From the IMG/VR virus record IMGVR_UViG_3300050821_013320, positions 1 through 63,145 of that record: DNA of 63,145 nt. The stretch is one strand, 5' to 3'. Each line of letters starts with the position of its first letter. Position 1 is the first letter of the stretch. The translations under genes and the position numbers were made by a program. The notes under the pieces are model-generated. The model made no database searches, was not told the DNA's origin, and saw nothing but the letters and a program-made list of their open reading frames with translations. Below are positions 5,861-48,321 of this stretch, piece after piece. The stretch is from a virus.

Positions 5861-6049
5861 CTAAACCCTCTCTTGGTCGAACGATCCAACCTTAGCGCGC
5901 AAGCCTCGATCCCGATGAGGCCAAAACATAAGCCTCCTAAACAGATACTCAGTCATCCACAACGCCGCAGCAAGCGCAACAATCGGAATACATAGCAGAG
6001 CAGTAACTACGCCGCAGAGATTTCTAAATGTTTCGACAAGTGACTTCAC
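5861..6049 (-). CDS. Small membrane protein with repeat-encoded tail (62 aa)
   Basis: One membrane segment (GVVTALLCIPIVALAAALW) occupies residues 13-32. The last third (MFWPHRDRG...GSFDQERV) is translated repeat unit 5870-5929, so the original gene probably ended earlier. ATGA overlap with the upstream gene. Confidence 0.5.
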   Translation of the reverse strand: MKSLVETFRNLCGVVTALLCIPIVALAAALWMTEYLFRRLMFWPHRDRGLRAKVGSFDQERV

Positions 6050-6585
6050 ACGACCAACCCGGAGCGCGATTTCTCGGCTTCAGCCAATATATGTTTGTGA
6101 ATGAAGATCTCCGATTCGAGTTCGGCGATCTGGACTTCGATAATCTGCTTTTCCGCCGTCTCCTGCAACTTGTGTGACTCGTTCCACAAGGAAACCGGAC
6201 CCGGCGTCACGTCCGCCGGCGAATGCGTGATGTAGCGCGACAAGTAGGTGACCAGGCGGCGCGTCATGTCCGAGTGTTTGATCAACGCCTTTAATTTCGC
6301 TTTCTGCATGTCCAGCTTGGCTTCAAGCAGCTTGATCTGGTTCTTTACCTGTTCTGGGTTTACGGGGATGAGTCGCTGGTTTTGGGAGGGGTTCATTTTG
6401 TTTTGGCCTCGTTCTACTTTTTCAGCTTGTTCGGATTGAAACTTCTCGACAGCGGCCATTTGTCCGGGTTGGAACATCCCACAGATACAGCGGCCTTGTT
6501 CTTCAACCAAGAAGTGTTCGTATTGCGAACAGTAGTTCACAAACCCCTCCTGGTCGAACGGAGCAGCATCCGCGCGAAGCCGCAA
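6046..6585 (-). CDS. Fusion of cassette-encoded protein with helical protein (179 aa)
   Basis: The first 63 residues come from the cassette at 6398-6605: a repeat-encoded head (ADAAPFDQEGF), a CICG pair, and a type-3 repeat tail (QSEQAEKVERGQNK). With no stop, the frame runs into MNPSQNQRLIPVNPEQ, which looks like the original start of a helical coiled-coil protein at 6394. The second part may also start on its own ATG at 6394. It is a direct example of a cassette making an in-frame fusion. Confidence 0.6.
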   Translation of the reverse strand: MRLRADAAPFDQEGFVNYCSQYEHFLVEEQGRCICGMFQPGQMAAVEKFQSEQAEKVERGQNKMNPSQNQRLIPVNPEQVKNQIKLLEAKLDMQKAKLKALIKHSDMTRRLVTYLSRYITHSPADVTPGPVSLWNESHKLQETAEKQIIEVQIAELESEIFIHKHILAEAEKSRSGLVV

Positions 6586-6605
6586 CTACGATGAGGCCAA
6601 AACAT
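6398..6605 (-). mobile_element. Repeat-bounded cassette 3
   Basis: R-L type-3 unit at 6398-6457 and L-R A-type unit at 6547-6605. Cargo is the short N-terminal part of the fusion gene 6046-6585. Confidence 0.75.
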
Positions 6606-8399: not shown

Positions 8400-8647
8400 T
8401 ATGGTTTGGCCTCGTTCTGCTTTTGGGAGGCGTCGGGTTGAGACTTCTCGACAGCGCACGATTTATGCCACAGTATTTTTACTTGCTCATCTGTGATTTC
8501 GAAATGACGATTTACGAGAAACATGAAGATCGTAGAAGAGACGCTGCTAATGGTCAAGAGCCACAACCAAACAACTAGCAGTCTCACAACCCCCTCCTGG
8601 TCGAACGGAGCCGCGCCCGCGCGAAGACTCGATCCCGATGAGGCCAA
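8399..8647 (-). CDS. Cassette gene: small membrane protein (82 aa)
   Basis: The repeat-encoded head (MASSGSSLRAGAAPFDQEGV) is followed by a membrane segment (LLVVWLWLLTISSVSSTIFM), a short helix and a type-3 repeat tail (AVEKSQPDASQKQNEAKP). The original small membrane protein is therefore wrapped by repeat-derived peptides at both ends. Confidence 0.55.
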   Translation of the reverse strand: MASSGSSLRAGAAPFDQEGVVRLLVVWLWLLTISSVSSTIFMFLVNRHFEITDEQVKILWHKSCAVEKSQPDASQKQNEAKP

Positions 8648-8652
8648 AACAT
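8400..8652 (-). mobile_element. Repeat-bounded cassette 5
   Basis: R-L type-3 unit at 8400-8457 and L-R A-type unit at 8594-8652. Cargo is the membrane protein gene 8399-8647. Confidence 0.75.
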
Positions 8653-9563: not shown

Positions 9564-9686
9564 ATGATTTTCGGTGTTGCAGTTCTGATCGCCGCCGTGG
9601 GTTATGCGTCCTACCAGGCGTGGAATTATTTTGCTCGTCTGGCAAGGGGCAGGGAGATGATGAAGAGATTGAGGGAGGCGCAGTGA
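9564..9686 (+). CDS. Tiny membrane protein (40 aa)
   Basis: Preceded by GTGGAGG as a strong ribosome binding site. Begins MIFGVAVLIAAVGYASYQAW, one membrane segment, then a basic tail (RLARGREMMKRLREAQ). Stop overlaps the next GTG start (GTGA). First gene of the rightward operon. Confidence 0.6.
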   Translation: MIFGVAVLIAAVGYASYQAWNYFARLARGREMMKRLREAQ

Positions 9687-10240
9687 TTCGCAATATTTTG
9701 GCCTCATTCGGCATGTGGCTTGCGCGTCGGTTCGGTCCCGTTCGACCAGGAGAGGTACCGAAGACAACCGATCAACCAGTAGAACTATCGAAGACGACCG
9801 AACCAAAGCAAGTTGTTTTACATCAGGTATTCTCACCGCCACCCTCTTGTGGAATTTCGGGCTGTCTGAGTCCCACTCATCAAGAAGAAAAACTAGAACT
9901 TCATCCTGACTCCGAAGGGAACATCACGCCGGAAGAAGGCGCTGCACTGTTTCGTCAGTTGGCCGCTTTGCGGTCGATGGGAGTCGTTGAAAAGGTCGCA
10001 TACGAGCAGGTTGTTAAAGCAGCGATCTTACACCCAGTTCATGTCCACGACTGGAAACGCCCTGAACTGAATTTGACCAACCGCGCATCGATTTCTTTTT
10101 CGATTCTCGGTCAACTGTGCGATTGCGGAGCCACACGAGTCTACGAAGGCCCTGCTTTCGGCTGGAAGGTGACAGAACCTCTCCTGGTCGGGCGCTCCGA
10201 ATCTAACGTTCCTCCCGATTCGACGGAGGCTAAATCATGA
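9683..10240 (+). CDS. Cassette gene: zinc-binding hypothetical protein (185 aa)
   Basis: GTG at 9683 is chosen because it overlaps the previous stop; the longer frame to 9620 is a shadow. The head (ILASFGMWLARR...VRPGEV) and tail (PLLVGRSESN...STEAKS) are both translated repeat. The core has SCGISGCLSP, a helical region, and a C-terminal LCDCGATRVYEG, suggesting zinc sites. No family is recognised. Confidence 0.6.
   Translation: MIRNILASFGMWLARRFGPVRPGEVPKTTDQPVELSKTTEPKQVVLHQVFSPPPSCGISGCLSPTHQEEKLELHPDSEGNITPEEGAALFRQLAALRSMGVVEKVAYEQVVKAAILHPVHVHDWKRPELNLTNRASISFSILGQLCDCGATRVYEGPAFGWKVTEPLLVGRSESNVPPDSTEAKS
9693..10238 (+). mobile_element. Repeat-bounded cassette 7
   Basis: R-L A-type unit at 9693-9752 and L-R G-type unit at 10181-10238. 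Cargo is the gene 9683-10240, both of whose termini are repeat-encoded. Confidence 0.8.
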
Positions 10241-10470
10241 CCTTCTCCCAACGCGCGCACACCATCCCCTCCCGCCGAGTAGTCCACGAGTTCTACCAGC
10301 GCGGAGCCCGCACGTGGTCCGATTCGATCCGTACCCATCGACCCTTCAACCTCGCCGCCCGCATCAGCGCAGTCTACGATTTGTTTTTGGGCCGAGTCTC
10401 TCCAAAACCCCTCCTGGTCGGGCGTTCGGAATTCGAACGAGCCGGTAATCGGACGGAGGCCAAACCATGA
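10237..10470 (+). CDS. Small basic protein with repeat-encoded tail (77 aa)
   Basis: ATG at 10237 lies at the R end of the upstream unit (GGAGG then ATG at about 8 bp spacing) and overlaps the previous stop. Core TIPSRRVVHEFYQRGARTW is basic. The tail PKPLLVGRSEFERAGNRTEAK is repeat unit 10412-10468. Confidence 0.55.
   Translation: MTFSQRAHTIPSRRVVHEFYQRGARTWSDSIRTHRPFNLAARISAVYDLFLGRVSPKPLLVGRSEFERAGNRTEAKP
10412..10468 (+). repeat. Repeat unit, L-R, G type (solo)
   Basis: Sits at the 3' end of the gene 10237-10470 and supplies GGAGG before the ATG of the next gene at 10467. No R-L partner lies between this and the previous unit. Confidence 0.9.
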
Positions 10471-15312: not shown

Positions 15313-15675
15313 ATGAAGTGCCACTTCTGTCTCAAGGAAGCAACCTCGCAATGCACCTTCAAAGTGCCGGACGCGCGAATCGTGTTTCCTTCCGAGATTG
15401 AAAAACTGGATTTGATTTTGGATACCGTGTCGCTGATCTACCGCCCGGTTAAAACAACGCCGCTGGTGAACGGACACGACTACACGACGTTGAAGTTTGC
15501 GGGCAAGAAGAGATCGACGATTGAGCGATTGGTAAACATCCGGCTGCCGTGTTTGCGGATGGAGATTCACGAGTGCGGATTGTGGACGTGTGACACGCAC
15601 ATCAGAGAGTTCGATGAAGGGTTGACGCAGTGTGCGGAGCATTGGCCGGTGGAACGGGTTTACGGAGTGGATTGA
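15313..15675 (+). CDS. Zinc-binding hypothetical protein (120 aa)
   Basis: Starts MKCHFCLKEATSQCTFKVPD at the R box of the previous unit. Further cysteines (LPCLRM, ECGLWTCDTH, QCAEH) suggest two zinc sites. No family is recognised. The following cassette starts 10 bp after its stop. Confidence 0.55.
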   Translation: MKCHFCLKEATSQCTFKVPDARIVFPSEIEKLDLILDTVSLIYRPVKTTPLVNGHDYTTLKFAGKKRSTIERLVNIRLPCLRMEIHECGLWTCDTHIREFDEGLTQCAEHWPVERVYGVD

Positions 15676-15684
15676 TCCGCTTTT

Positions 15685-16815
15685 TATTTTGGCCTCATCG
15701 GGCATGAAGATTCGACCGGGTTTCGGTGCGTTCGACCAAGAGAGGATTTTGAGAATGGGATTGACATCGATAGAGTGGACGGATCGGACGTGGAATCCAA
15801 CGCGCGGCTGTTCGAGAGTATCGGAAGGATGCCGGAACTGTTACGCGGAAAGAATCGCCGCGCGGTTCAGCGATGAAGATTTAGAAGATCCGATAAATTG
15901 CGATCCTCCGTTGTGTGAACTCGATCCTCCACTTTCAGACAAGAGGACGGGTGTATTTTACGGGTTCGCGATTCGCACACCATCAGGTCCGCGCTGGACC
16001 GGCAAAGTGGAATTGATCGAATCGAAGTTGAGCGAGCCATTGCACTGGAAGAAACCGCAACGCGTGTTTGTTAATTCGATGAGCGATCTGTTTCACGAAG
16101 CGTTGCCGGATGACGCGATAGACCGTGTGTTCGCGATCATGGCGCTGTGTCCGCACATCACGTTTCAGGTTTTGACGAAGAGGCCGGAACGGATGTTGAA
16201 GTGGTTTACACCTGATTGGGATGCGCCGCGTGAAACATGGGAACGGGTCCGAGTTAGAACGGCACTTGTAAAAACGAAGATGTCGGAGGAATGGGACTGG
16301 CCTCTTTCCAACGTATGGCTCGGAGTCTCCGTCGAAGATCAGGCAACCGCCGACGTTCGCATCCCGCTTCTGTTGCAGACACCCGCCGCGATCCGGTTCG
16401 TGAGTTATGAACCGGCGCTCGGGACGGTGGACTTCGCAGAGTTTTTCAAACGATCTCCGCGATGTCCAACGGAGGCGTGCATCGCTCTTGATGAATGTGC
16501 GTGTCTCACTCGAACAGGACTCGACTGGATTATTGCGGGCGGGGAATCAGGACCCGGCGCGCGGCCTCCGCATCTCGATTGGTTTAGACAAGTCCGTGAT
16601 CAATGTATCGCCGCCGATGTTGCGTTTTTCTTCAAGCAATGGGGTGAATATTTTCCACGACCCGGTGAAGCATGGATGGGCGATCTTCATATGGAACGCA
16701 TCGGGAAGAAAAAAGCTGGCGCTCTTCTTGACGGTCGCGAGTGGAAACAATTCCCTCTCTTGGTCGAACACACCACCAGCCGCGCGAAGACTCAATCCCG
16801 ATGAGGCCAAATCAT
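15685..16815 (+). mobile_element. Repeat-bounded cassette 9
   Basis: R-L unit at 15685-15742 (L box has CCAAGAG) and L-R unit at 16757-16815, both A type. Cargo is the Gp37/Gp68-type gene. Confidence 0.75.
15755..16804 (+). CDS. Gp37/Gp68 (DUF5131) family protein (349 aa)
   Basis: ATG at 15755 follows AGAGAGG of the L box. Motifs TSIEWTDRTWNPTRGC, EGCRNCYAE, VFVNSMSDLFHE, FQVLTKRPERM, NVWLGVSVEDQ and WIIAGGESGPGARP are the signature order of phage Gp37/Gp68 proteins. The three N-terminal cysteines recall radical-SAM proteins; the reaction is not established. The tail FPLLVEHTTSRAKTQSR is repeat-encoded. Confidence 0.88.
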   Translation: MGLTSIEWTDRTWNPTRGCSRVSEGCRNCYAERIAARFSDEDLEDPINCDPPLCELDPPLSDKRTGVFYGFAIRTPSGPRWTGKVELIESKLSEPLHWKKPQRVFVNSMSDLFHEALPDDAIDRVFAIMALCPHITFQVLTKRPERMLKWFTPDWDAPRETWERVRVRTALVKTKMSEEWDWPLSNVWLGVSVEDQATADVRIPLLLQTPAAIRFVSYEPALGTVDFAEFFKRSPRCPTEACIALDECACLTRTGLDWIIAGGESGPGARPPHLDWFRQVRDQCIAADVAFFFKQWGEYFPRPGEAWMGDLHMERIGKKKAGALLDGREWKQFPLLVEHTTSRAKTQSR

Positions 16816-19227: not shown

Positions 19228-19927
19228 TGTTTTTGGCCTCATCGAAGATTCCAGTTCCCGCGTCCGCTATCCCGTTCGACCAGGAGAAAGTTTTCGTCTG
19301 TGATTCGGAGAATCCATGGGCTTAATCGGATTGGGCGATTCTCTCGTTGCGACGGCGCTTCCGGCCATGCCAGTGGATGTCACGACGGCGAACAACATCG
19401 TGAGCACGCAGCCATATTGGAATCTGATCATTCAAATCGCGCAGCAGCCAGCGAGCAACGCGAGTTCAGATAACACTGTGACAGCCGCGCAAATCGCAGC
19501 GGGGATACCGCAAGCGGCAGCGCAGTATAAATCGCTGAGCGGACCTCAACAACAGGCGTTGCTCGCTCCGTATTTGGCGCTATGGTCATTTCTTCCGACG
19601 TATCTCGCCAGTGCTCCAGTCGTTGACGCGTACAACAAACAGATGGGATCGTCCTACACTCCAGAGACCAATCCTTACGCGTTCATTTATTACACCGAGT
19701 ACGGGCAGGCGGCCCAATCCTTTCTGACGCAATTCTTTCAAGCTATCGGAGTGACGCCGCCAACGCTGAATAATTCCGGCACTGGATCTGGGAATGTTCC
19801 GCCGACGCTCATCTTTGGAATCGCGGCATTGGTCCTCTTGTGGCTGGTGATGAAATGAGAAAAAACCTCTCCTGGTCGGGCGCTCTTAAATTGATCGAAG
19901 CCGCGAAATCGACGGAGGCCAAAACAT
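19228..19927 (+). mobile_element. Repeat-bounded cassette 10
   Basis: R-L A-type unit at 19228-19286 and L-R G-type unit at 19869-19927. Cargo is the gene 19316-19858. Confidence 0.75.
19316..19858 (+). CDS. Cassette gene: tail-anchored protein (180 aa)
   Basis: Preceded by CGGAG before the ATG. Begins MGLIGLGDSLV. The Ala/Gln-rich middle (ITAAQIAAG-like, AQYKSLSGPQQQALLAPYLA) is helical, and the last 18 residues form a membrane segment (IFGIAALVLLWLVMK). One of the tail-anchored set in this module; likely in a viral or host membrane. Confidence 0.6.
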   Translation: MGLIGLGDSLVATALPAMPVDVTTANNIVSTQPYWNLIIQIAQQPASNASSDNTVTAAQIAAGIPQAAAQYKSLSGPQQQALLAPYLALWSFLPTYLASAPVVDAYNKQMGSSYTPETNPYAFIYYTEYGQAAQSFLTQFFQAIGVTPPTLNNSGTGSGNVPPTLIFGIAALVLLWLVMK

Positions 19928-20564
19928 GCCGATCCTAACCGTAGCGCCACACTACCCACCAGGCTACGGAGGCGATCCCTACACGCCGGACAACATTTCA
20001 GTGTTCTATGATTTGAACTGGCCGGATCACGCGGGAATTCTTTCGACGGGTTTGGGATTGAGCGGTCTGGGATGCGGATGTTCGGAATCGGATGAGGCCG
20101 GAACATGCTTGGACCCGGAACCCTGTACGAGTCCCGGATCGTCACCTTTGCCGCCGACTCCTCCACTGCCCACGCCGCCGACCGGGGGAATCACCGATTC
20201 TGCCGCTGCGTGCGGAGCCGGATGGAGCATCGTACTCAATTCAGCGGGGCAACCGATCTGCCAGCAGAACACTCCGTTGAATACGCCACTCACACCGTCA
20301 CAGGCCGGACTCACGCCCGCGCAACAGGCCGCGCTGATTGCACAGACCGGGAACGCCGCGGTTTCTCTGATCCGCACCGCGGCCGGCGGACCCTACACTG
20401 TGGCGGGAACAAATCTGGTTTACAATCCAGCGACCGGGCAACTCACGACTACTGGCGGCGCGAATGCAACCGCGCTGGCATCGTCAATTACGCCGTACAT
20501 TCCGATGATCGGACTAGCGCTTGCCGCACTGATTATCGTTCCAAAATTGCTAGGAGGCAAATAG
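19926..20564 (+). CDS. Tail-anchored protein (212 aa)
   Basis: ATG at 19926 follows the GGAGG of the R box. Cys-rich N-terminal part (GLGCGCSESDEAGTCLDP), Pro-rich linker, Ala/Thr-rich middle, and C-terminal membrane segment (MIGLALAALIIVPKLLGGK). Function unknown; same architecture as neighbours. Confidence 0.6.
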   Translation: MPILTVAPHYPPGYGGDPYTPDNISVFYDLNWPDHAGILSTGLGLSGLGCGCSESDEAGTCLDPEPCTSPGSSPLPPTPPLPTPPTGGITDSAAACGAGWSIVLNSAGQPICQQNTPLNTPLTPSQAGLTPAQQAALIAQTGNAAVSLIRTAAGGPYTVAGTNLVYNPATGQLTTTGGANATALASSITPYIPMIGLALAALIIVPKLLGGK

Positions 20565-20732
20565 ATGGCAGGTCCGAAATTCGGTTCTCCCGCGTGGCGC
20601 AAAAAGTACGCGAAGAAGTTGAACAAGAGAAAGGCGAACCGGAAGACGAAGAACCCGCGTCGGCGGCGCACAACGAATTCAAACGCGTCGATTCTCAAAA
20701 AGATCAAGGCACTCGCGAAAAAAATCAAGTAA
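20565..20732 (+). CDS. Very basic small protein (55 aa)
   Basis: AGGAGG lies 12 bp before the ATG. About 40 percent Lys/Arg (WRKKYAKKLNKRKANRKTK, NPRRRRTTN, ending KALAKKIK). Likely binds or condenses nucleic acid, like the basic minor proteins of some virus particles (inference). Stop overlaps the next ATG. Confidence 0.6.
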   Translation: MAGPKFGSPAWRKKYAKKLNKRKANRKTKNPRRRRTTNSNASILKKIKALAKKIK

Positions 20733-21553
20733 TGCTGCGCTACGGATACAGACCGCCTTCGCCGATGGTCCATTGGGGACTTTCAGGACTCGGTGATGCC
20801 ATGCAAACGGGTGAAACCGCTGCATCCATCGCGGCACAGGGGGTTGCGACCACCGCCACGATTTTGAGTAGCTTGTCGATTGCGTCGACGGTTGCAGCCG
20901 GTGGAGTCGCGGCGGAAGCCACGGTTCTCGGAATAAGTGCGGCGGTCGTGCCTGTGATCGGCGCGGCGATTGCGGGAATTGTGGCGGTCGGTATCGCAGT
21001 CGCGAATATGTTCAAGGGGTGCGGGCAAACCTGTATCGCGGCGACGAACATTGCGAACCAAGTAGGGGACGAACTCGCAAAAAATGTCGATCACTACACT
21101 TCCTCTCCGATTCGGTTCGCGTCGATGCAAGCCGCAGCCTTAAACGTATTCGACACGGCATGGGCAGCTCTGGTGCAGGCGTGTAACAATCCACAACTCC
21201 AAGCGGCAGGACAGCGCTGCATCACAGATCGACAGCGCGGCGCGTGCGTCTGGAAAGCATCACCTGGTGGATGGAATCCGGATGGAACTTACACGATGTG
21301 GGGACCGGCCGGCTCTGGCACATCGTGCTGGAATTGGTTCACGGGCATGAGAGATCCGATCGCGAATGATCCGTTTGTTCAGCCAGATCCGACTCCGGCG
21401 CCGGCGGGCGCGACCGGTTCGATAGTTCTTCCAGGTTCAACCGGTTCGACTCAGACCGATGGAGGTTTGGCGACAACTCTATCGACGATTCCAACTCCGC
21501 TGTTGATCGGTGGAGCAATTCTTCTGGCCTTGCTTGCGAGTGGGGAATTATGA
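20732..21553 (+). CDS. Membrane-rich structural-type protein (273 aa)
   Basis: ATG at 20732 overlaps the preceding stop; the longer open frame is a shadow. A long Ala/Val/Ile-rich region (about residues 30-95, ATVLGISAAVVPVIGAAIAG) forms two or three hydrophobic helices, followed by a Cys-containing domain (CGQTCIAATN, RCITDRQRGACVW, GTSCWNW) and a C-terminal membrane segment. Could be a membrane-penetration or minor virion protein. Confidence 0.55.
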   Translation: MLRYGYRPPSPMVHWGLSGLGDAMQTGETAASIAAQGVATTATILSSLSIASTVAAGGVAAEATVLGISAAVVPVIGAAIAGIVAVGIAVANMFKGCGQTCIAATNIANQVGDELAKNVDHYTSSPIRFASMQAAALNVFDTAWAALVQACNNPQLQAAGQRCITDRQRGACVWKASPGGWNPDGTYTMWGPAGSGTSCWNWFTGMRDPIANDPFVQPDPTPAPAGATGSIVLPGSTGSTQTDGGLATTLSTIPTPLLIGGAILLALLASGEL

Positions 21554-21903
21554 GCCAGACCAACGTGTTGGGCAGTCTCGCTATCGGTGTTGGACTTGGA
21601 ATTGCGACGATCTTCGTTGCTAACAAACTTCTTCCGAGTGGCGGATGGTGCCAACCTCAAACTGTGCCAGTTGCTCCGGGCTCAGTGCCGGTTGGTTTAA
21701 TGCCTCAGATCCCAAATGGCTATGTATTTTCGTCGTCAAATCCATTGTGTACGCAAACCGCAATGGGTTCGCCAGTGGCGCAATGGATTCCATGGATTGC
21801 CGCTCCGTTGATAGGATTTGCGGTCACTGGAAATATTTGGGGTTTGATCGGCGGCGGGCTAGTTGACGCTGGTGTAGCCGTAATGCTTTCGGGGCTGTCA
21901 TGA
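21550..21903 (+). CDS. Membrane protein (117 aa)
   Basis: Starts MSQTNVLGSLAIGVGLGIA with a membrane helix, a polar middle with two cysteines (GWCQPQ, NPLCTQT), then two more hydrophobic stretches (WIPWIAAPLIGFAVTG and IWGLIGGGLVDAGVAVML). Overlaps the previous stop. A partial R box (GAGGCCAAAACATG) follows it. Confidence 0.55.
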   Translation: MSQTNVLGSLAIGVGLGIATIFVANKLLPSGGWCQPQTVPVAPGSVPVGLMPQIPNGYVFSSSNPLCTQTAMGSPVAQWIPWIAAPLIGFAVTGNIWGLIGGGLVDAGVAVMLSGLS

Positions 21904-21916
21904 GAGAGGCCAAAAC

Positions 21917-22654
21917 ATGCTAATGCCCCGCGGCTTGGGCCTCACCTGTCCATCAGGACAGCAGCCAACCAACATGTACGACGGCTCCGTCTCCTGTTGC
22001 GGAGTTCCGGGAACACCGTGTTTGGCCGATCCCTGCTGCATTCTGAATAACCCCGGATTCATTGCGGAGCAAAATGCGCAAGTCGCACAGGATATAGCAA
22101 GCATCCCAGCATCTTCGTTTGAAGGACAGACCTTGCAAGCCCTGATGAGCGTGCCGACCAACATCGGTGAGGACGCCGTGAAATGCCAATCAAATCCGGG
22201 TCTGACGTTCGTTGATAACGCTGGCGTCACGATCACGTGTCCGTCTCCCTCTCATTCGGATCTGACTACGGGCGGGCAGCCGATGTCCACGTTCACGACC
22301 GGGCAACTCGCACAGATGTTGAATTCGCAATTTGGCGGGCAGGCACCGCAGACTGCGGGCGAGACTCCGTTTTTCTCTCCGAGCACGACTGTTCCGGCTG
22401 CCACGATCAAGGCGGTGGTTCCGAAAACCACGGTGGCCGGATCGGGAACGCAACCCGCGGGCGGCGGTTCACCAGCTCCCGATGGATCGACTAACACGGG
22501 CGGATCAACTTCATCGAGTTCGAGCAGCAGCGGAGTGGATCTCTCGTTCCTCACAAATTCTTCGTTGATCAATGGCGTGCCGAATTGGATGGTCGGATTT
22601 GGCGCATTGGCGGCTTTGATCGTTCTTCCGAGTTTGATGGGAGGCCGACGATGA
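21917..22654 (+). CDS. Tail-anchored protein (245 aa)
   Basis: ATG at 21917 sits in a lone R box. Cys pairs near the N-terminus (LTCPSGQQ, SCCGVPGTPCLADPCC), a central helical part (GQLAQMLNSQFGGQ), a Ser/Gly-rich linker, and a C-terminal membrane segment (FGALAALIVLPSLMGGRR). Same layout as other proteins here. Confidence 0.6.
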   Translation: MLMPRGLGLTCPSGQQPTNMYDGSVSCCGVPGTPCLADPCCILNNPGFIAEQNAQVAQDIASIPASSFEGQTLQALMSVPTNIGEDAVKCQSNPGLTFVDNAGVTITCPSPSHSDLTTGGQPMSTFTTGQLAQMLNSQFGGQAPQTAGETPFFSPSTTVPAATIKAVVPKTTVAGSGTQPAGGGSPAPDGSTNTGGSTSSSSSSSGVDLSFLTNSSLINGVPNWMVGFGALAALIVLPSLMGGRR

Positions 22655-22801
22655 TGCTTTGGCCTCATTCGATAGCGATGTCCCCGTCCGATATAACGTT
22701 CGACCAGGAGATGGTTTTGTCCTTCGAAGGTAGAAAAAACCTCTCCTGGTCGGGCGATCTCAATCTGATCGAAGCCGAGAAATCGACGGAGGCCAAATCA
22801 T
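22654..22801 (+). mobile_element. Compact repeat element E1 (inverted pair, empty)
   Basis: R-L A-type unit at 22654-22710 and L-R G-type unit at 22743-22801 flank a 32-bp linker (GGTTTTGTCCTTCG then GGTAGAAAAAAC). The whole element is an open frame from ATG 22654 to the TGA at 22801, overlapping the stop before and the start after. Confidence 0.85.
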
Positions 22802-23339
22802 GAGCATCCTCGGATTAGGAGACGGAGCCTTCGACTTCGGAAACAACGACTCCGGCGCCTTCGCCAACTTCGGACCCGTGATTCTGCACGACGGAACACA
22901 CATCATCGATCCCGCGGGAACCCCGGCAACGGCTTCGCAGTGCGCTCCCTATCAGTGCGGAGTGGATCGCAATAACGCAGCGGCAATCTTCTGGTGCGGA
23001 TATTGGGGACAAGAAGGATTCGGCGGCGCGCAGCCGTGCATGTCTTCGCAGTGCGCTCCGTATCGAACTCTGATTCCCGGATGCAACATCGTGCAGCCGA
23101 GTCCGCTCAGACCCGACGCGCCGGTTCCGGTTCCAACGTTTCCGCCTCCGGTTTTAACGCCGGCGAACATTGTGCAACCGCTGCCTGATATCACCCAGGC
23201 GAATCAACATGTGCCGATTGCGACGGACGGCGGATGCCTTTGCGTGATCAGTTCGTTGATCAACAAAAATCCCCTGGTCGCGGTTCTGGCGCTCGTGGGA
23301 GCAACGGCGCTTTTGAGCAGCAGAAAGGGGCGGCGATGA
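22800..23339 (+). CDS. Tail-anchored Cys-rich protein (179 aa)
   Basis: Follows GGAGG of E1. Cysteine motifs recur (SQCAPYQCGVD and SSQCAPYRTLIPGC), then a Pro-rich stretch and a C-terminal hydrophobic segment (LVAVLALVGATALLSSRKG). The repeated SQCAPY suggests an internal duplication. Function unknown. Confidence 0.6.
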   Translation: MSILGLGDGAFDFGNNDSGAFANFGPVILHDGTHIIDPAGTPATASQCAPYQCGVDRNNAAAIFWCGYWGQEGFGGAQPCMSSQCAPYRTLIPGCNIVQPSPLRPDAPVPVPTFPPPVLTPANIVQPLPDITQANQHVPIATDGGCLCVISSLINKNPLVAVLALVGATALLSSRKGRR

Positions 23340-23665
23340 AAGACATGACGCCTATTCTGTGGATTACCGGGATTGGAGTTCTGGCGTACTACGGCTATCA
23401 GCAGGGATGGTTCGGAAATCTGACGGTGAGCGTTCCGACCGCGATTCCTCCCGCGAGTCCGCCATCGATCCCAATTGCCAGCGGTGGGGGCGCGAACATC
23501 GTGCCCGTTGGCGTGTTGACGCCGATTGAGCCGACGCCTGTGATTCCCGCTCCGGTCGTTAATCCGGTTCCTCCGGTCGCAAGCGCAACTCCGATTTTCG
23601 GTGGCGGTGGAAATCCGGTCTTCGTTGGAGTATTGTCTACGGGCGGTTGCGTGGGGTGCATGTAA
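23336..23665 (+). CDS. Membrane-anchored protein, paralogue 1 (109 aa)
   Basis: An N-terminal membrane segment ends in the motif YYGYQQGWFGNL, followed by a Pro/Val-rich extended region and a terminal GGCVGCM. The gene after it carries the same motif, so the two are tandem paralogues. Overlaps the stop before it. Confidence 0.6.
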   Translation: MKDMTPILWITGIGVLAYYGYQQGWFGNLTVSVPTAIPPASPPSIPIASGGGANIVPVGVLTPIEPTPVIPAPVVNPVPPVASATPIFGGGGNPVFVGVLSTGGCVGCM

Positions 23666-24309
23666 TGGCAAAAGATTACAGCTCTTTGATCGTTCTCGCG
23701 GGTGTTGGCGCACTTGGTTACTACGGGTATCAGCAGGGTTGGTTTGCAAACCTGTTTCCCGCTGCCGCCGCGCCGGGTTCTTCCGCTCCTCCGGTTCCGC
23801 CGACATGCAACGCTCCAAGCGTTCTCACAAATGGCGTGTGTGTCACTCCGGCGATCACTTCGGGAACCAATCCGCCGTTGCAGCAGCAGTCCTCGCCGCC
23901 TCCCGCGCCTCCGGTAACCACTCCTCCGGCTCCGAGCACCAGCGGACTGACAACGCAGGGGTCGCTCGCAGCATTGGCATTGGCCGCGCAAGCCGCGAGC
24001 GAGGGATTGCCGAACGCTGGTACCGCAACCTTGAACGCCGATCAGTGGAATTATTACTACGGGCATGTTCCGTCGTTCGTTCCCTCAGTCAACGGGGCCG
24101 CGGTGAACACATCATCGCTGTTCGATTTGGATCATGTATTTTTCCCGAATGGCCGTCCCGCGAATAACGCGAGTTACACGCAATACACCGCAGGTCAATT
24201 TATCGCCGCGCTTCAGAATGCCGGAGCAAGTTGGCCGGGACTTCAAGGGATTTCTGGATTTGGAAACTACTACGGAATCCCGGCTGGTCTGATTCATGGA
24301 GGGTACTAA
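23665..24309 (+). CDS. Membrane-anchored protein, paralogue 2 (214 aa)
   Basis: An N-terminal segment (LIVLAGVGALGYYGYQQGWF) matches paralogue 1. It continues with a Pro-rich linker and a C-terminal domain of about 110 residues (TATLNADQWNYYYGHVPSF, GLQGISGFGNYYGIPAG) with many Tyr. The extra domain could be the functional head. Confidence 0.6.
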   Translation: MAKDYSSLIVLAGVGALGYYGYQQGWFANLFPAAAAPGSSAPPVPPTCNAPSVLTNGVCVTPAITSGTNPPLQQQSSPPPAPPVTTPPAPSTSGLTTQGSLAALALAAQAASEGLPNAGTATLNADQWNYYYGHVPSFVPSVNGAAVNTSSLFDLDHVFFPNGRPANNASYTQYTAGQFIAALQNAGASWPGLQGISGFGNYYGIPAGLIHGGY

Positions 24310-24458
24310 TTTGTTGGCCTCATCGCGATTTCGAGGTTCTCGCGCCCGCTCCAGCGTTCGACCAGGAGATGGTTTTGTCTTCGGGAGTAGAAAAAATCTC
24401 TCCTGGTCGGGCGCTCATAAATTCCACGAAGCCGGAAAACCGACGGAGGCCAAAACAT
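24310..24458 (+). mobile_element. Compact repeat element E2 (inverted pair, empty)
   Basis: R-L A-type unit at 24310-24368 and L-R G-type unit at 24400-24458, linker GGTTTTGTCTTCGGGAGTAG, clearly related to that of E1. Ends 1 bp before the next ATG. Confidence 0.85.
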
Positions 24459-24626
24459 ATGCGTGAAGGACTCGCGGGCTGCTACTCCTGGGAACCGACC
24501 TTTACCGCTCCTCCGAATTGCGGAGGAACAAGCGGAAGCGGCGGTCAATCTTCGTGTCCCGATGCAACGTGGTTCTGGGTTCTTGCAGCCGTTGCCGCTG
24601 GGTATTTGATTTTTAAGAAAAACTGA
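24459..24626 (+). CDS. Small tail-anchored protein (55 aa)
   Basis: ATG at 24459 follows the R box of E2. Short Cys-containing ectodomain (LAGCYSWEPTFTAPPNCGG, SSCPDATWFW) and membrane segment (VLAAVAAGYLIFKKN). Stop overlaps the next ATG. Confidence 0.55.
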   Translation: MREGLAGCYSWEPTFTAPPNCGGTSGSGGQSSCPDATWFWVLAAVAAGYLIFKKN

Positions 24627-25087
24627 TGCGATTAGGCACTCCATATTTGCGCGCCGACGAATGGGGCCATCCGATCATCGGATTGGGAGACGACGCCGGT
24701 TTCTCAGTCGATAGCGGAATCGGAATCAACACTTCCGGCGTAATAGTCAACACGCCGACGACCGCGCAAACGGATTATGCTCTGAACGCTCTTGCACAGC
24801 AGGCCTGTGGCGATCAGGGCGGAATCTGGAACCCTTCCAATAATTCGTGCGCCGGAGGAGGCGGGTCGTCGGATTGTCCGGCTGGCTATATTCTGAGTGG
24901 ATTTAGCTGCGTAAAGGCACCCGTTACGGGCAGCAGTGGAGCTGCTGCATCTGGGGTTACTGCGCCAATTTGCCCCTCGGGTCAAACATGTTCAATCATC
25001 CCCGGCATCCCGAACACCAGCATTTATGTCGCACTCGCGGCAGTTGCGGCTCTGTTCCTTTTCGCAATGGGAGGAGGACGCCGATGA
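24626..25087 (+). CDS. Tail-anchored protein (153 aa)
   Basis: Helical N-terminal part (QTDYALNALAQQACGDQGG), a Gly/Cys-rich middle (SSDCPAGYILSGFSCVKAP, CPSGQTCSII) and a C-terminal membrane segment (YVALAAVAALFLFAMGGGRR). Overlaps both neighbours. Confidence 0.6.
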   Translation: MRLGTPYLRADEWGHPIIGLGDDAGFSVDSGIGINTSGVIVNTPTTAQTDYALNALAQQACGDQGGIWNPSNNSCAGGGGSSDCPAGYILSGFSCVKAPVTGSSGAAASGVTAPICPSGQTCSIIPGIPNTSIYVALAAVAALFLFAMGGGRR

Positions 25088-25479
25088 ACGCCTACCAGGT
25101 CCTCCAGATTTCTGAAACAGCCTCGGCGGAAGTGATACGCGCGGCGTGGACGGCGCTCGTTCGCGAGTGTCACCCGGATGGCCCGAAACCCAACGTTCGC
25201 CGAACGCAACTGTTGAACGAAGCCTACGCCACGTTGAAAGATCCGGTGAAACGGAAGGCGCTCGATCAGCAATTGAAGGCGGCAAAAGTCTCGAAGCCCG
25301 TTCGCGAAAAGCGACACCCGGCGCAAGAAAGCGCGTATCCTGCCGCCTATCCAGATCCATATGCAGGGATTTCGCAAGAAGACATAGACCAAGCGGTGGA
25401 GCACATGACTTCGAAAATGGATCCGATCGCGAAACTCGCGGTGAAGTTCGTTTACGGAAAAGCACGGAGGCGCGCATGA
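25084..25479 (+). CDS. J-domain (DnaJ-like) protein (131 aa)
   Basis: Residues 1-65 are a J domain: NAYQVLQISETASAEVIRAA, the HPD tripeptide in RECHPDGPK, and QLLNEAYATLKDPVKRKALD. The remaining 65 residues are basic and helical. It should recruit host DnaK, perhaps for assembly of the surrounding virion proteins. Starts on ATGA with the previous stop. Confidence 0.85.
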   Translation: MNAYQVLQISETASAEVIRAAWTALVRECHPDGPKPNVRRTQLLNEAYATLKDPVKRKALDQQLKAAKVSKPVREKRHPAQESAYPAAYPDPYAGISQEDIDQAVEHMTSKMDPIAKLAVKFVYGKARRRA

Positions 25480-25769
25480 GTCTCGTGGGAGTGGGGATGT
25501 ATCCGACTGATCCGTGCTTCGATCCCAACCGAGCATCATGGTTGCCGTACTGGATCGACAACACGACCGAATCCGCGTGCTACTACGGAACGGATTCTCT
25601 ACTCGGTCAAATGGGAGGAGTTGTCGGCGGGGCGGCCGGAACGGTTGCGAGCGGGGCGGCTAGCGCGGTTGCATCCGGCGTTGCGACTGGCGTCAGTAAC
25701 ACTTCAGCCAGCGGCCTTTTGCTGGTCGCGGCGGTTGGCGTGGCGGCGCTGTTTTTATTGAAGCGATGA
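25476..25769 (+). CDS. Tail-anchored protein (97 aa)
   Basis: ATG at 25476 overlaps the J-protein stop; the longer open frame is a shadow. N-terminal YPTDPCFDPNRASWLPYWID, a Gly/Ala/Val-rich helix (VVGGAAGTVASGAASAVASG) and a C-terminal membrane segment ending FLLKR. Confidence 0.6.
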   Translation: MSLVGVGMYPTDPCFDPNRASWLPYWIDNTTESACYYGTDSLLGQMGGVVGGAAGTVASGAASAVASGVATGVSNTSASGLLLVAAVGVAALFLLKR

Positions 25770-25779
25770 GGAGCACTTT

Positions 25780-26247
25780 ATGAGCTTAATCGGTTTGCGA
25801 GATTTCGTCGGCGGGCAGTTCGCGGTACCGGAAAATCCCGTCATGCGCGGGCAGGGCGTCGGCAGCCTCCGGGATTTCGTCGGCGGTTCGTTTGTCGTTC
25901 CAGAAAATCCGGTAATGCGCGGCGTCGGAAACTTCGTCCCCTCCGGTCCAATGTGGCCGATTCCGGCGAACTCCGTCATTACGGCATGGAAAGGCGCGGG
26001 CATGGCGGGCCTCGGCTGTGGGAGTTCCAAATCCGATTGTGGATGTGGATGCGGCGGACATTCCTCCGGCATGGGAACGTTTGATCCGATTGGCGCGTTC
26101 ACGACAGCCATTGCGGATGCGGGAACGGCACTTTCAACGATGTCGCTTGCTCCAATCACGGGAACCGATTGGATGGTTTTGGGAGGTAGCGCGGCTGTGA
26201 TTTATCTTATTGCGGATTCTCTGAGTAAGGGAGGACGTCGGCGGTAG
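25780..26247 (+). CDS. Tail-anchored protein with duplicated DFVGG motif (155 aa)
   Basis: Two tandem copies of LRDFVGG(Q/S)F(A/V)VPENPVMRG occupy residues 4-45. A Cys/Gly-rich spacer (SSKSDCGCGCGGHSSG) and a hydrophobic C-terminus (WMVLGGSAAVIYLIADSLSK) follow. The same motif (MGDFVSGKFAVPQNPVLDG) appears in the basic protein at 30986, suggesting a shared docking sequence. Confidence 0.6.
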   Translation: MSLIGLRDFVGGQFAVPENPVMRGQGVGSLRDFVGGSFVVPENPVMRGVGNFVPSGPMWPIPANSVITAWKGAGMAGLGCGSSKSDCGCGCGGHSSGMGTFDPIGAFTTAIADAGTALSTMSLAPITGTDWMVLGGSAAVIYLIADSLSKGGRRR

Positions 26248-26263: not shown

Positions 26264-26412
26264 ATGTTGGCCTCAGTCTATTTTCGTTCTTCGCGTCGGT
26301 TCGATAGCGTTCGACCAGGAGTGGTGTTTTCTCATCTCAGTAAGAAAACTTTCCTCATGGTCGAACGCTCTCAATTCCGCGCGCAGCGAGGTGCCCGATG
26401 AGGCCAAAACAA
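26264..26412 (+). mobile_element. Compact repeat element E3 (inverted pair, empty)
   Basis: R-L unit at 26264-26321 and L-R unit at 26354-26412 (L box has a CTCATGG variant), both A type. The linker (GTAAGAAAACTTTC) is related to E1. An open frame runs ATG 26264 to TGA 26401, overlapping the next ATG at 26398. Confidence 0.8.
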
Positions 26413-27201
26413 AATCCCCGTTCTTTCGATCGCTGCGTCAAAGCCGTCTCCAAATCCGGTTCCGCAATTTCTCCCTACGCTGTCTGCAAAGCACAGGCAC
26501 AACGGAGAGGAACGAAAAACCCCGGACTCAACGCAATGCTGGCCGCGCTTCCCCATTCCACTCTTGGGAAGAAAGCCGGCGCTGCTCTCAAACGGTATTT
26601 CTCCGCAAAAAACCCGGCCGACAAATCCGAAGAAATGTACGAGATGTTCCACGGAATGCCGCCCGATGAAATCCTCACGATCGTCGAGCGCGTGCACGTT
26701 CACAAAAACCTGTGGACCGTGGGAACCCTCACGCAAATGGTGATTCAGACCTTCAACGGCAAGCAGTTCGACCTGGACGCTCCGGACCCGGACGAAGCGC
26801 GAGATACCGAAGTGGTATACGTCACGGCGAACGAGCCCTACACAGATAAAGACACCGGCAAAAAGATCGAAGGCGGAACGCAGATGTTCTTCCGCGGCGG
26901 CGATCAGGAGATTCCCGAATCGATCCTCAAAAGCCGGTGCGGATTCAACGACGACGATTTCAAGGAGCAGATGATTATCGGCTGGGTCGTCGACCTCACG
27001 TATCGAACAAAGAAGATTTTCGAAAAGAACGGAGAGGAGCTCGTCGACTTCGTTCACCCGCTCGGCAAAGAACACTCGCGCGGTGTGTTTCCGCTGCTGG
27101 TATACAAGCCACGGGATCCGAGCATGGCGTTGTTCGGCGGGCGTTACAAAGTACTGCCGGTGCGTGGAGATATTGGAGCGAGTCCGGGGATTGCGGGATG
27201 A
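26398..27201 (+). CDS. Hypothetical protein (267 aa)
   Basis: Starts on the ATG inside an R box (MRPKQNPRSFDRCVKAVSKS), the N-terminus being basic like a processed virion protein. Central part helical, C-terminal 150 residues alpha/beta (VVYVTANEPYTDKDTGKKIE, MIIGWVVDLTYRTKKIFEK). No recognised domain. It lies among structural genes. Stop overlaps the next start. Confidence 0.55.
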   Translation: MRPKQNPRSFDRCVKAVSKSGSAISPYAVCKAQAQRRGTKNPGLNAMLAALPHSTLGKKAGAALKRYFSAKNPADKSEEMYEMFHGMPPDEILTIVERVHVHKNLWTVGTLTQMVIQTFNGKQFDLDAPDPDEARDTEVVYVTANEPYTDKDTGKKIEGGTQMFFRGGDQEIPESILKSRCGFNDDDFKEQMIIGWVVDLTYRTKKIFEKNGEELVDFVHPLGKEHSRGVFPLLVYKPRDPSMALFGGRYKVLPVRGDIGASPGIAG

Positions 27202-27710
27202 ATAATAATTTGGCCTCATCGGACCTGTCGGCTTCGACCGCGCCTGAGAGCGTTCGACCAGGACAGGAACCTGTCATTAGCAGATGGATGGCGGAAGAGT
27301 ATCACATGCTTCCATCGGACGCGGTTGCGCTCCTAACGTTTAGCAGAAAAGACAACTCTCTTCTGGTGATGAACTGTTTTGAACGAACCGATGGAACATT
27401 TCGGCGGATTGATAACTTCGCCGCATGGGTACCATCCGAAGAGTTCTATTTAGCACGTAGAATACGGATTTCAGAGGAAGCAAAACCGCCGTATGAACAG
27501 GTGCTAGATGTGCTGGCCGGGCGGTTGCTGAGTGCGTTCTTAACCTATCGCTACGACGTCGATGTGAAACCGGAAGAGTTATATTCGTCAAACGACAAAG
27601 AGGCACTTCTACAACAGATCCGGTGGAATATCCGAAAGTTTGTTAAACCTCTCCTGGTCGGGCGCTCTCAACCTGACGGCTCTCCCAATTCGACGGAGGC
27701 CAAAACATGA
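27198..27710 (+). CDS. Cassette gene: hypothetical protein (170 aa)
   Basis: ATG at 27198 overlaps the previous stop. Head (NNNLASSDLSAST...SVRPGQE) and tail (PLLVGRSQPDGSPNSTEAKT) are repeat-encoded. The core of about 125 residues is alpha/beta (VALLTFSRKDNSLLVMNCFE) with a basic helix near the end. Function unknown. Confidence 0.6.
   Translation: MNNNLASSDLSASTAPESVRPGQEPVISRWMAEEYHMLPSDAVALLTFSRKDNSLLVMNCFERTDGTFRRIDNFAAWVPSEEFYLARRIRISEEAKPPYEQVLDVLAGRLLSAFLTYRYDVDVKPEELYSSNDKEALLQQIRWNIRKFVKPLLVGRSQPDGSPNSTEAKT
27206..27709 (+). mobile_element. Repeat-bounded cassette 11
   Basis: R-L A-type unit at 27206-27264 (CAGGACAGG variant) and L-R G-type unit at 27651-27709. Cargo is the gene 27198-27710. 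Confidence 0.8.
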
Positions 27711-27952
27711 ACGACTTGATGACATTTGCGAAAACAGTGCCGTACTTTCCACCGAACTCCTGTGCATGGGGACATGCCGCTCTTGGGTTTGGTGTGGGCT
27801 TTGTCGAACCGTGGGCGCAAGCGGTGGGGATTGCTCTGTTCGTCGCGTATGAAGCGATGCGCGATAAACCGATGAACGAGAAAATCGGCGCCGTTGCGGA
27901 GTTCACGACCGGGTTTTTAGTGCAGAAAGTCGCTTTCGGAGGGAAGCAGTAG
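27707..27952 (+). CDS. Small membrane protein (81 aa)
   Basis: ATG lies at the R end of cassette 11 after GGAGG. Hydrophobic middle (HAALGFGVGFVEPWAQAVGI, ALFVAYEAM) suggests one or two membrane helices with a soluble helix at the C-terminus. Function unknown. Confidence 0.5.
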   Translation: MNDLMTFAKTVPYFPPNSCAWGHAALGFGVGFVEPWAQAVGIALFVAYEAMRDKPMNEKIGAVAEFTTGFLVQKVAFGGKQ

Positions 27953-29085
27953 TGAATTTCATTTTCTTGAGCGTTCCGACATTCGAGCCGTGGGATTGGA
28001 CCAATCCCGATGTCAAAGGCATCGGCGGATCGGAGACCTCGCATATCGAAATGTCGAACCGGCTTTCGGATCGCGGACACTCGGTCTATTCGTACGGGCC
28101 GACGCCGTTCGAAGAACCGCGGCTGAATCCGCACGGGGTCACGTGGGAGCGCTGTGATCACGATTCGAACATCTGGCGGCGTCATGGTGTCTGGGTTGTC
28201 TATCGCGATCCGCAATCGATTGACGATATCGATCCCTCGAATCCTTCATGGCTGATCTGCCAGGATGTCGACTATCCGCAGTTGACGCAGGAGCGGGCCG
28301 CGAAGTTTACGCGCATCGTCGCGCTTTGCGAAACACACGGCCGGTATCTTCGCCAGAAGTACCCAACGGCGAACATTTGCGTTTCTTCGAACGGCATCAA
28401 GTCGGAATTGATCGCCGAGGCGCTGAAGAATCCGCCGGCGCGGAATTCCAAACGCCTGATGTACGCCTCAAGTCCCGACCGCGGCCTGCTGTACCTGTGC
28501 GAAATCTTCAAACGCGCGAAAGAACTGATGCCGGATCTCGAATTGCACGTGTACTACGGCTTCAACAACATCTCGAAGGTTGAAGAGTGCAATCCCGGAG
28601 TTAGAACTCGTACGAATGAAATCCGGCGCGCACTCGATCAGGAAGGTATCACCGACAACGGCCGCATGGGGCAGCCGGAGCTGATTCAGGAGTGGCTCAA
28701 GGCAGGTATCTGGTGTCACCCGTCAAGTTTCACGGAAACCTCCTGCATCACGTGCATGGACGCGCAAGCCCTCGGCGCCGTGCCGATCACAACCCCAGTG
28801 TGGGCAATCGCGGACAACGTAGAGCACGGCATCTTCATCGAAGGCGATCCCTACACCGATAACCTGACGCGTGCGCGATACACCCTGGAACTGATCCGGC
28901 TTGCACAAGATCTGGAACGTCAAGAAACAATCCGCGCCGAGATGATGCCCTACGCACAAGCGCGTTTCGGTTGGGAGAATTTCGTTGATCAGTGGGAAGT
29001 GTGGGCGCGCGAAGACTATTACCGCTCCTGGTCGGGCGCTCAAAATAACGCCGAAGTCGCGGCGCTCGTGGAGGCCAACGTATGA
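27952..29085 (+). CDS. Family 4-type glycosyltransferase (377 aa)
   Basis: GTG start at 27952. N-terminal NPDVKGIGGSETSHIEMSN is the donor-side glycine loop; SKRLMYASSPDRGLLYLCEI starts the second Rossmann domain; CHPSSFTETSCITCMDAQAL is the EX7E-like region. A GT-B retaining enzyme that moves a sugar from a nucleotide donor. Its last 17 residues (SWSGAQNNAEVAALVEANV) are encoded by a G-type repeat unit. Confidence 0.85.
   Translation: MNFIFLSVPTFEPWDWTNPDVKGIGGSETSHIEMSNRLSDRGHSVYSYGPTPFEEPRLNPHGVTWERCDHDSNIWRRHGVWVVYRDPQSIDDIDPSNPSWLICQDVDYPQLTQERAAKFTRIVALCETHGRYLRQKYPTANICVSSNGIKSELIAEALKNPPARNSKRLMYASSPDRGLLYLCEIFKRAKELMPDLELHVYYGFNNISKVEECNPGVRTRTNEIRRALDQEGITDNGRMGQPELIQEWLKAGIWCHPSSFTETSCITCMDAQALGAVPITTPVWAIADNVEHGIFIEGDPYTDNLTRARYTLELIRLAQDLERQETIRAEMMPYAQARFGWENFVDQWEVWAREDYYRSWSGAQNNAEVAALVEANV
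29035..29083 (+). repeat. Repeat unit, L-R, G type (solo, in coding sequence)
   Basis: Shorter than usual (about 49 bp; the R box reads GTGGAGGCCAACGTATG). It encodes the C-terminus of the glycosyltransferase and carries the ATG of the methyltransferase. Confidence 0.8.
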
Positions 29086-30685: not shown

Positions 30686-30834
30686 ATGTTGGCCTCAGTC
30701 AAAACCGGTCTTCTTGCGGATTCTCTACCGTTCGACCAGGAGAAGTCCTTCGCCTTCGCGGGTAGAAAAAACTACTCCTGGTCGGGCGCTATCGATCCGC
30801 ACGAAGCCAGAAATGCGGAAGGAGGCTAAAACAT
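30686..30834 (+). mobile_element. Compact repeat element E4 (inverted pair, empty)
   Basis: R-L A-type unit at 30686-30742 and L-R G-type unit at 30775-30834; linker CTTCGCGGGTAGAAAAAACT. The same linker occurs in reverse in E6 at 49.9 kb. Confidence 0.85.
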
Positions 30835-31641: not shown

Positions 31642-32346
31642 TTGCCACTACCCGGCACCGCTCAAATGACCACTGCGGGCTACCCGCAGAATAACCAGAC
31701 CGCGGCTATGGTCGCAGCTCAGGCGGCGCAAAACGCCGTCGCCGCGATCACCGCGCAACAGCAGTTCATCATCAATTCGTTCCGCGGGCAGATTTACATC
31801 TCGAATCAGCTCGACGTCGAAGACACGCCGGTGTACGACACTGTAACGTACACCGCAGGTCAGACCGTGACGCTCACCAATGCGTCGTGGTTCACCAACG
31901 TCGAAGGCAATTCGGGAAAAACGTTTGCCCAAACCAACATGGACACCAACGGCCGTCTTGACGCGCCCGAGGCTTTCTCCGTGTTCGGAGTCCGCTTCAA
32001 CTGGTCGGAAGGTATTCTGCGCTCCGATCTGCAAACCTTGCTCGATTCGTGGGCGTTTGAATTCTGGCTGGGAAAGAAAAACTACCAGCGCGCCAATATC
32101 CGCCACTTCTCCTCGGGGATGGGGATTTCGGGCTACACCACCAAAACCGCGGAGTCGTTCTACACCAACGGCGTTCCCGGCCGTCAGTCGATGAACATGC
32201 TTTCGGTTAAACTGGTGATCGCGAACCAAATGTCGTTTGAGGCGTTTCTGTCCGGCAACAATTCCGGCCAGGTTCTATCATCTTCGGGTGCGGGGGCAAT
32301 CCTGTACGTGGAGTTGGTGGGACTGTACGCACGCGGCGTTCAGTAA
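31642..32346 (+). CDS. Candidate major virion protein (234 aa)
   Basis: A strong AAAAGGAG precedes a TTG start. A Gln/Ala-rich helix (MVAAQAAQNAVAAITAQQQF) is followed by a beta-rich body (DTVTYTAGQTVTLTNASWF, ESFYTNGVPGRQSMNMLSV). The order of helix then beta-body, the gene position and the good ribosome binding site fit a capsid or major surface protein. No homologue was recognised; this is inference. Confidence 0.45.
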   Translation: MPLPGTAQMTTAGYPQNNQTAAMVAAQAAQNAVAAITAQQQFIINSFRGQIYISNQLDVEDTPVYDTVTYTAGQTVTLTNASWFTNVEGNSGKTFAQTNMDTNGRLDAPEAFSVFGVRFNWSEGILRSDLQTLLDSWAFEFWLGKKNYQRANIRHFSSGMGISGYTTKTAESFYTNGVPGRQSMNMLSVKLVIANQMSFEAFLSGNNSGQVLSSSGAGAILYVELVGLYARGVQ

Positions 32347-37107: not shown

Positions 37108-37257
37108 TGGTTTGGCCTCATCGTAGTCAAGTCTTCACGCGACTTCCCTACCGTTCGACCAGGAGAAAGTGTGCGTCTGCGAGTGTGGTAAAAAACCTCT
37201 CCTGGTCGGGCGCTCTCGATCTGATCGAAGATGGGAATCGGACGGAGGCCAAATAAT
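37107..37257 (+). mobile_element. Compact repeat element E5 (inverted pair, empty)
   Basis: R-L A-type unit at 37107-37165 and L-R G-type unit at 37199-37257. An open frame of about 50 codons runs through it, from the ATG overlapping the previous stop to TAA at 37254, directly followed by the TTG start of the next gene. Confidence 0.85.
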
Positions 37258-48310: not shown

Positions 48311-48321
48311 GGCCAAACCAT
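48263..48321 (+). repeat. Repeat unit, L-R, A type (solo)
   Basis: Encodes the C-terminus of the helicase-methyltransferase and its stop, and lies in the gap before the convergent gene at 48334. Confidence 0.9.

Follow-up and report, generated by a model that had tools for sequence, protein, structure and literature searches.

A dispersed, translatable repeat at overlapping gene junctions of an uncultivated virus: a probable adaptor for translational coupling

A repeat of about 55 nt, named R, which is scattered over the genome of an uncultivated virus, is, as judged from the sequences, probably a portable translational-coupling adaptor that has spread through one virus lineage. The whole stretch of DNA that was analysed (the window) is the virus record IMGVR_UViG_3300050821_013320, which comprises 63,145 bases. 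Three detectors found between 71 and 75 copies of R in the window, on both strands and across the whole genome. Open reading frames, a covariation of frame and length, overlaps of stop and start codons, and differences in presence and cargo at corresponding junctions of related viruses can all be read directly from the letters.

R begins with CTCCTGGTCG, followed by AA or GG and by CG; the subsequent core of about 30 nt is variable, and the other edge consists of T or G followed by GAGGCCAAA. Copies of type A have the form GTCGAACG...TGAGGCC, those of type B the form GTCGGGCG...GGAGGCC, and those of type C the form GCTGTCGAGAAG...CGAGGCCAAA; the length of type C is divisible by three in 14 of 17 copies. 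Along the genome, the orientation alternates strongly, which results in head-out pairs consisting of an R1 and a subsequent R2. The two members of a pair are separated either by about 32 nt (an "empty" element) or by a cargo gene. The 16 empty pairs, which stem from five contigs, are 139-144 bp long and have a spacer of 29-33 nt; the remaining pairs hold cargo, and unpaired single copies are common. The reading frames differ among copies: R1 is read in the frame LASS, WPH, or FGL, and R2 in the frame SWSG, LVGRS, or LVERS.

The locus 9683-10470 (plus strand) illustrates how R is integrated into consecutive genes. The ORF 9683-10240 is a single span of R1, cargo, and R2, and encodes 185 aa. Its GTG at 9683 overlaps the preceding TGA (GTGA), and its own TGA overlaps the ATG at 10237. 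The peptide starts with the R1 head VIRNILASFG...VRPGE, continues with the cargo, and ends with the R2 tail ...PLLVGRSESNVPPDSTEAKS before the stop. The head (LASS frame) is encoded by a type A copy on the minus strand (9692-9757, found by nhmmer) and the tail (PLLVGRS...STEAKS) by a type B copy on the plus strand (10174-10240, found by the repeat detectors). The next cargo ORF (10237-10470, plus strand), whose homolog in contig G003 is 58% identical at the amino acid level, also has an R2 tail, which is due to a type B copy (10404-10469, plus strand, nhmmer); it terminates with ...PLLVGRSEFERAGNRTEAKP and a TGA overlapping the ATG at 10467. The initial annotation had described stop/start overlaps in or beside R together with repeat-encoded heads and tails, and reading the sequence proved its description of this locus exact.

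The same annotation had stated this for cassette genes in general, and this observation was confirmed in part, namely for a large subset of copies. At least one of the four features listed next was found in 54 of the 75 window copies, whereas 21 copies have none of them. An outward ATGA ends an ORF of at least 30 codons in 13 of the 75 copies, an inward start overlaps the stop of an ORF in 20, an inner GTGA or ATGA exists in 10, and an internal TGA ends an ORF in 33. Some cassette genes do start in or beside R, but many cargo genes start after R1 and not within it; similarly, the repeat-encoded heads and tails seen at 9683-10470 are not both present on all cassette genes, and their frames vary by copy. 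The TTG starts are uncertain. Because the sequence of R itself accounts in part for some of these classes, permutation tests are stronger evidence than the class counts.

For a survey of start offsets, 264 R copies from eight contigs were considered. In 62 of the 264 copies, an outward ATG is located precisely at +11, while other offsets usually account for 0-7 copies, the exception being 21 copies at +14. The precise offset of an inward ATG is -4 in 115 copies and -7 in 25 copies. Inner starts (ATG or GTG) peak at +6 to +8 nt beyond the inner edge, mostly with a stop overlap (ATGA or GTGA). Among the empty elements, which had been claimed to be open from start to stop, 13 of 16 indeed have a continuous frame that starts near R1 and stops at the edge of R2, whereas three are closed or have no start. 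The mean in chimeras with shuffled parts was 5.7, and none of 2000 part-shuffles reached the value of 13. When the R sequences of the 61 type B and C copies were swapped 2000 times, no swap gave a value as high as the observed one: an upstream ORF of at least 60 codons ends at the edge of R in 37 of 61 cases, compared to 21 after swapping (P < 0.0005), and a stop/start overlap exists in addition in 29 cases, compared to 15.

Length and frame of R2 covary, and the upstream frame thus ends with ...EAKx and a TGA overlapping the next ATG. In type B copies of length 48 (B48), frame 0 (LVGRS) contains a stop in none of 13 copies, and in those of length 49 (B49), frame 1 (SWSG) contains one in only 1 of 20; the other frames contain several. 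The stop-free frame tracks the length of R, as is required if the end ...EAK-x-TGA must be reached. Codon-model coding scores were too weak for frame assignment, and the analysis relied on open frames, homology, and permutation instead. In R, the variability of codon position 3 exceeds that of positions 1 and 2 only slightly; the peptides thus show little sign of selection, and their conservation at the protein level is weak. The openness of the frame, the Shine-Dalgarno motifs, and the stop/start overlaps at the edges are retained, and the peptide hardly is.

Further sites in the window show which forms R can take. A recurrent mini-ORF of 22 aa in R1, M(M)[FVI]WPHR...RSTR[RS]GL followed by a stop, is entered by a TGATG overlap and left by a GTGA overlap. 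It occurs at 6547-6601 (minus strand, MMFWPHRSCGFARMLLRSTRRGL; with TGATG at the entry and GTGA leading into gene 6046-6540), 8594-8648 (minus strand, MMFWPHRDRVFARARLRSTRRGL), 33103-33157 (plus strand, MMFWPHRSSVFARARSRSTRRGL), and 45617-45671 (minus strand, MVWPHRDLVPTRTRLRSTRRGL; exit into gene 45332-45610), each peptide ending at a stop. The mini-ORF with its GTGA exit recurs in G000, G001, and G008, and a close TTGA variant in G002. On the plus strand, empty elements are found at 22658-22797 (a single ORF, MMLWPHS...STEAKS, ending at a stop), 24313-24454 (open frame ...LASSRFRG...SWSGAHKFHEAGKPTEAK), 26266-26408 (an A-A element, whose ORF ends at an internal CGATGAGG overlapping the ATG of gene 26398), 30688-30830, and 37111-37253 (open in the WPH frame); the empty element at 49902-50045 on the minus strand lacks an in-frame start and is a counter-example. 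Cargo is carried by the plus-strand elements 19232-19923 (gene 19316-19858), 27198-27710 (a single ORF, MNNNLASSD...PLLVGRSQPDGSPNSTEAKT, up to the stop), and 34005-34277 (a short cargo stretch). Two plus-strand copies serve as tails with the ends VENSQSEQAATPNEAKT (type C, 33443-33496, ATGA exit) and PLLVERSTLEAPPQSD (type A, 48263-48317, on the helicase-methyltransferase 45782-48310), each followed by a stop. A tRNA-Met gene (53653-53726, minus strand) lies between R copies. The region 19316-26247 encodes a run of small proteins with a common start similar to MSLIGLGD and a hydrophobic stretch at the C-terminus; several of them end with GGRR, and their presence differs among relatives.

A pattern scan of viral contigs detected R also in G001 (59,868 bp), G002 (58,096 bp), G003 (21,970 bp), G004, G005, G007, G008, and G009. 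The whole window is collinear with G001 except for a different start point, and the identity of the proteins is about 32-87%. The first 337 bases of the window recur at 62806-63145 with 91% identity, the last ~100 bases being nearly identical; together with the shifted start of G001, this terminal repeat suggests that the genome, of about 60-63 kb, is circular or circularly permuted. The packaging-type ATPase leads to more distant relatives, G006 and G011, which are without R. At both contig ends of G006 (L059, L061), a tandem array of the 12-mer CTCAGCGGTCNN was found, with about 38 units at the start and at least 9 at the end; this high-copy repeat was rejected as an instance of R. In G005, the ATPase ORF (L057:16039-18828) harbours an intein that includes a homing endonuclease of the LAGLIDADG type (Hom_end_hint, 6.9e-16), from which the copy in the window is free. 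An annotated phage collection contained no close DNA match to the first 25 kb of the window, and known phages gave a single distant match, to the ATPase. At least 119 stretches in 84,980 bacterial genomes fit the R pattern; none of the matches listed passes the R profile, and these matches are due to chance. The protein 31642-32346 (234 aa) is 70-88% identical across eight other aligned contigs; no relative exists in the annotated phage collection and no PHROG matched. It could be the main capsid protein of a virus group about which little is known; its predicted structure (pLDDT 30) was unusable and was set aside.

The comparison of relatives shows that elements and cargo come and go at homologous junctions. 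At 22654/22800, the window contains an empty element that is absent from G001, G002, and G003, where the genes overlap or abut. At 27201/27707, the cargo element of the window is one ORF; the genes of G001 abut, and G002, G003, and G008 have an unrelated gene. At 19218/19926, a 180-codon cargo gene in the window corresponds to an empty element of 139-142 bp in G001, G002, and G003. At 34002/34277, the window has a short cargo and G008 an empty element, and frame and length of R2 change together. The empty element 30688-30830 is also present at this junction in G002 and G008, and at 27952, a plain overlap in the window and in G008 corresponds to an insertion headed by R1 in G002. Since the cores of orthologous elements resemble each other, many elements have been inherited vertically. 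The initial annotation had argued that an element can enter an operon without breaking translational coupling. This agrees with the junctions listed above, where the overlaps are kept. Some R copies are located at convergent gene ends and have nothing downstream to couple. At positions 27480-28100 of G002 (L052:7480-8100), an inserted cargo ORF ends with LYLAGKVVGGMSSK, which is a near-copy of the C-terminus of the upstream gene (GYLAGKVVGGMNTK); it looks as if the upstream 3' end had been duplicated upon insertion.

R can also replace the end of a protein. In the glycosyltransferase-like protein 27952-29085, a type B copy (29018-29085, plus strand) takes the place of the C-terminal codons: homology matches end at residues 383-387, and R starts at residue 386 of the stop-to-stop frame. 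Likewise, homology ends at the start of R in the protein 42656-43405 and in the DUF5131 protein 15632-16804, for which a type A copy (16757-16811, plus strand) forms the C-terminal tail from residue 377 onwards. Repeat-free orthologs of 27952-29085 possess an unrelated tail of similar length with a Shine-Dalgarno motif and a stop/start overlap. As these unrelated tails do the same job, R2 appears to be one of several exchangeable solutions for the transition from the end of a gene to the start of its successor.

These observations are consistent with the following mechanism. The inward R1 supplies a start codon at its outer edge, which often overlaps the stop of the previous gene; some 18-22 open codons follow, and the inner edge carries the Shine-Dalgarno motif AGGAG ahead of the next start. 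The outward R2 supplies an open C-terminal tail for the preceding gene, the Shine-Dalgarno motif (G)GAGG, and a TGA that shares bases with the subsequent ATG. A ribosome would translate R up to its stop and then reinitiate at the start codon overlapping this stop. An element consists of two copies in head-out orientation; its loop of 32 nt is either empty or gene-bearing, and the chain of overlaps continues in both cases. In the consensus fold of the 16 empty elements, both Shine-Dalgarno regions are paired; initiation may consequently need an upstream ribosome that opens these stems. Termination-reinitiation at ATGA overlaps is an established process, which both ATGA and TGATG overlaps were shown to support in those bacteria and archaea that have been tested (PMC6728339), and R has the overlapping stop/start and the Shine-Dalgarno motif in the upstream ORF that characterise this type of coupling. 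Termination-reinitiation is, however, known as a property of individual gene pairs, whereas it is tied here to a dispersed repeat. We infer that the cell translates R, that R is selected for coupling, and that the elements move; coupling may also be tolerated rather than selected.

The latter possibility leads to a selfish palindromic mobile element of the MITE or RPE type, which inserts as R-spacer-R at junctions without benefit to the virus, while selection removes the copies that break translation. We regard this as unlikely, though it deserves serious attention. Empty elements are palindromic units of about 142 bp with inverted arms, the terminal inverted repeats are those expected for a MITE, presence or absence varies at the junctions 22654, 27201, and 27952, and the amino acid constraint on R is weak. 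Rickettsia palindromic elements (RPE) are units of about 150 bp, occur many times per genome, and encode peptides in frame with host ORFs (PMC10969869). R is nearest to them in form, its empty elements being palindromic, 139-144 bp long (within 100-150 bp), and built of inverted arms of ~55 nt; this likeness is one of description. However, the examined R copies are located between genes or at protein ends and never inside conserved domains, R ends in a Shine-Dalgarno motif with a stop/start overlap, it can hold cargo, and it lives in a virus. Among small phage elements, the nearest is MPME, which has terminal inverted repeats and is present or absent between close relatives; MPME1 has a length of 439 bp, was inserted once per genome in the described cases, and disrupts a gene, with 6 bp being added at one end (PMC3029335). 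In contrast, R elements leave gene junctions readable. No transposase with matching ends has so far been identified. The window encodes an IS1595-family transposase at 55747-56658, for which no homolog was found in the related R-bearing contigs. A target-site duplication was not detected in 70 R pairs, as the flanks did not match better than swapped ones (3.67 versus 3.56, P = 0.14), a test whose power is limited by the age of the insertions. Moreover, some elements occupy the same junctions in relatives and are hence old, and the fixed offsets of Shine-Dalgarno motifs and starts look functional, although the need to be harmless could likewise have given rise to them.

Alternatively, R could be a recombination or gene-cassette site at the DNA level, that is, a point of homology or of site-specific exchange of cargo, for which translation is incidental; we consider this improbable. 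Cargo varies inside conserved R1 and R2 flanks, and the cargo of G002 that ends in a near-copy of the upstream 3' end would fit. In addition, a conserved serine recombinase (44087-44755, minus strand; PF00239, 4e-39) has counterparts at the corresponding site of G001, G002, and G005. It is the only recombinase identified as common to the window and its relatives, and nothing was found that links it to R. On the other hand, G000 and G001 are collinear without inversions between R copies, and a covariation of frame and length is not expected for such a site. The sites of integrons, attC, have conserved ends and a variable core. R resembles them in this respect and in bracketing ORFs with recombination-like sites, and integron gene cassettes and attC sites have been reported in phages (PMC9892861). 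However, inverted R pairs flank the cargo on both sides, and none of the 264 copies contains the pair of core boxes RYYYAAC and GTTRRRY; R was thus rejected as an integron attC. Among the 25 of 38 Pfam families listed for 90 window ORFs, there is a serine recombinase and no tyrosine recombinase (integron integrase). The capture system implied by the term "cassette" in the initial annotation was not found.

That R1-R2 pairing forms an RNA element for processing, stability, or regulation, with translation being secondary, is hardly credible: a 22-pair consensus stem exists in the 16 empty elements and G-U pairs between R1 and R2 persist on the sense RNA after the AA to GG change in R2, but the covariation term is negligible (-0.13), two-sided changes occur at only 2 pairs, R1 does not bind its own R2 more strongly than a swapped one (P = 0.36 for the full length, 0.55 for the core), and single copies are common. 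The hairpin was rejected as a conserved feature, as the cores of R1 and R2 do not co-vary, and it gives little independent support because the stem follows from the conserved ends of R.

With respect to position, R is closest to the SAS and ESAS repeats of cluster K mycobacteriophages, which are located at translation starts, have in part inverted repeats with a variable spacer, and were proposed to play a role in initiation; SAS measures 13 bp and occurs 11-19 times in the non-structural half of the genome (PMC3203893). R is likewise fixed beside starts, at the offsets of +11 (outward ATG, 62/264) and -4 (inward ATG, 115/264). The 13-bp motif GGGATAGGAGCCC is, however, absent from the R consensus with its edges GAGGCCAAA and CTCCTGGTCG, and R is about 55 nt long, exists in ~75 copies on both strands and genome-wide, and lies within open frames. 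For each known system, at least one defining feature is missing from R or is unsettled. The best reading is that R is built like the Rickettsia elements and placed like SAS/ESAS, but is a member of neither.

The initial annotation knew of no description of such elements entering operons without a loss of coupling. The general idea of frame-preserving, peptide-encoding elements is not new, as the Rickettsia elements show; in the open-access literature, we found no phage repeats that combine the features of R, and their use at overlapping viral gene junctions with cargo in the loop was not found described.

More tentatively than the adaptor itself, we propose that this virus lineage may keep dozens of translated adaptors of ~55 nt as docking sites for genes, such that coupling is preserved through gain and loss and the genome operates as a modular ribosome relay. 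Phages gain and lose genes constantly, although many of their genes are translationally coupled; if R is an adaptor, it would reconcile both. R explains protein tails that are otherwise taken for real protein evolution or for annotation errors, and it would constitute a ready-made and testable coupling part.
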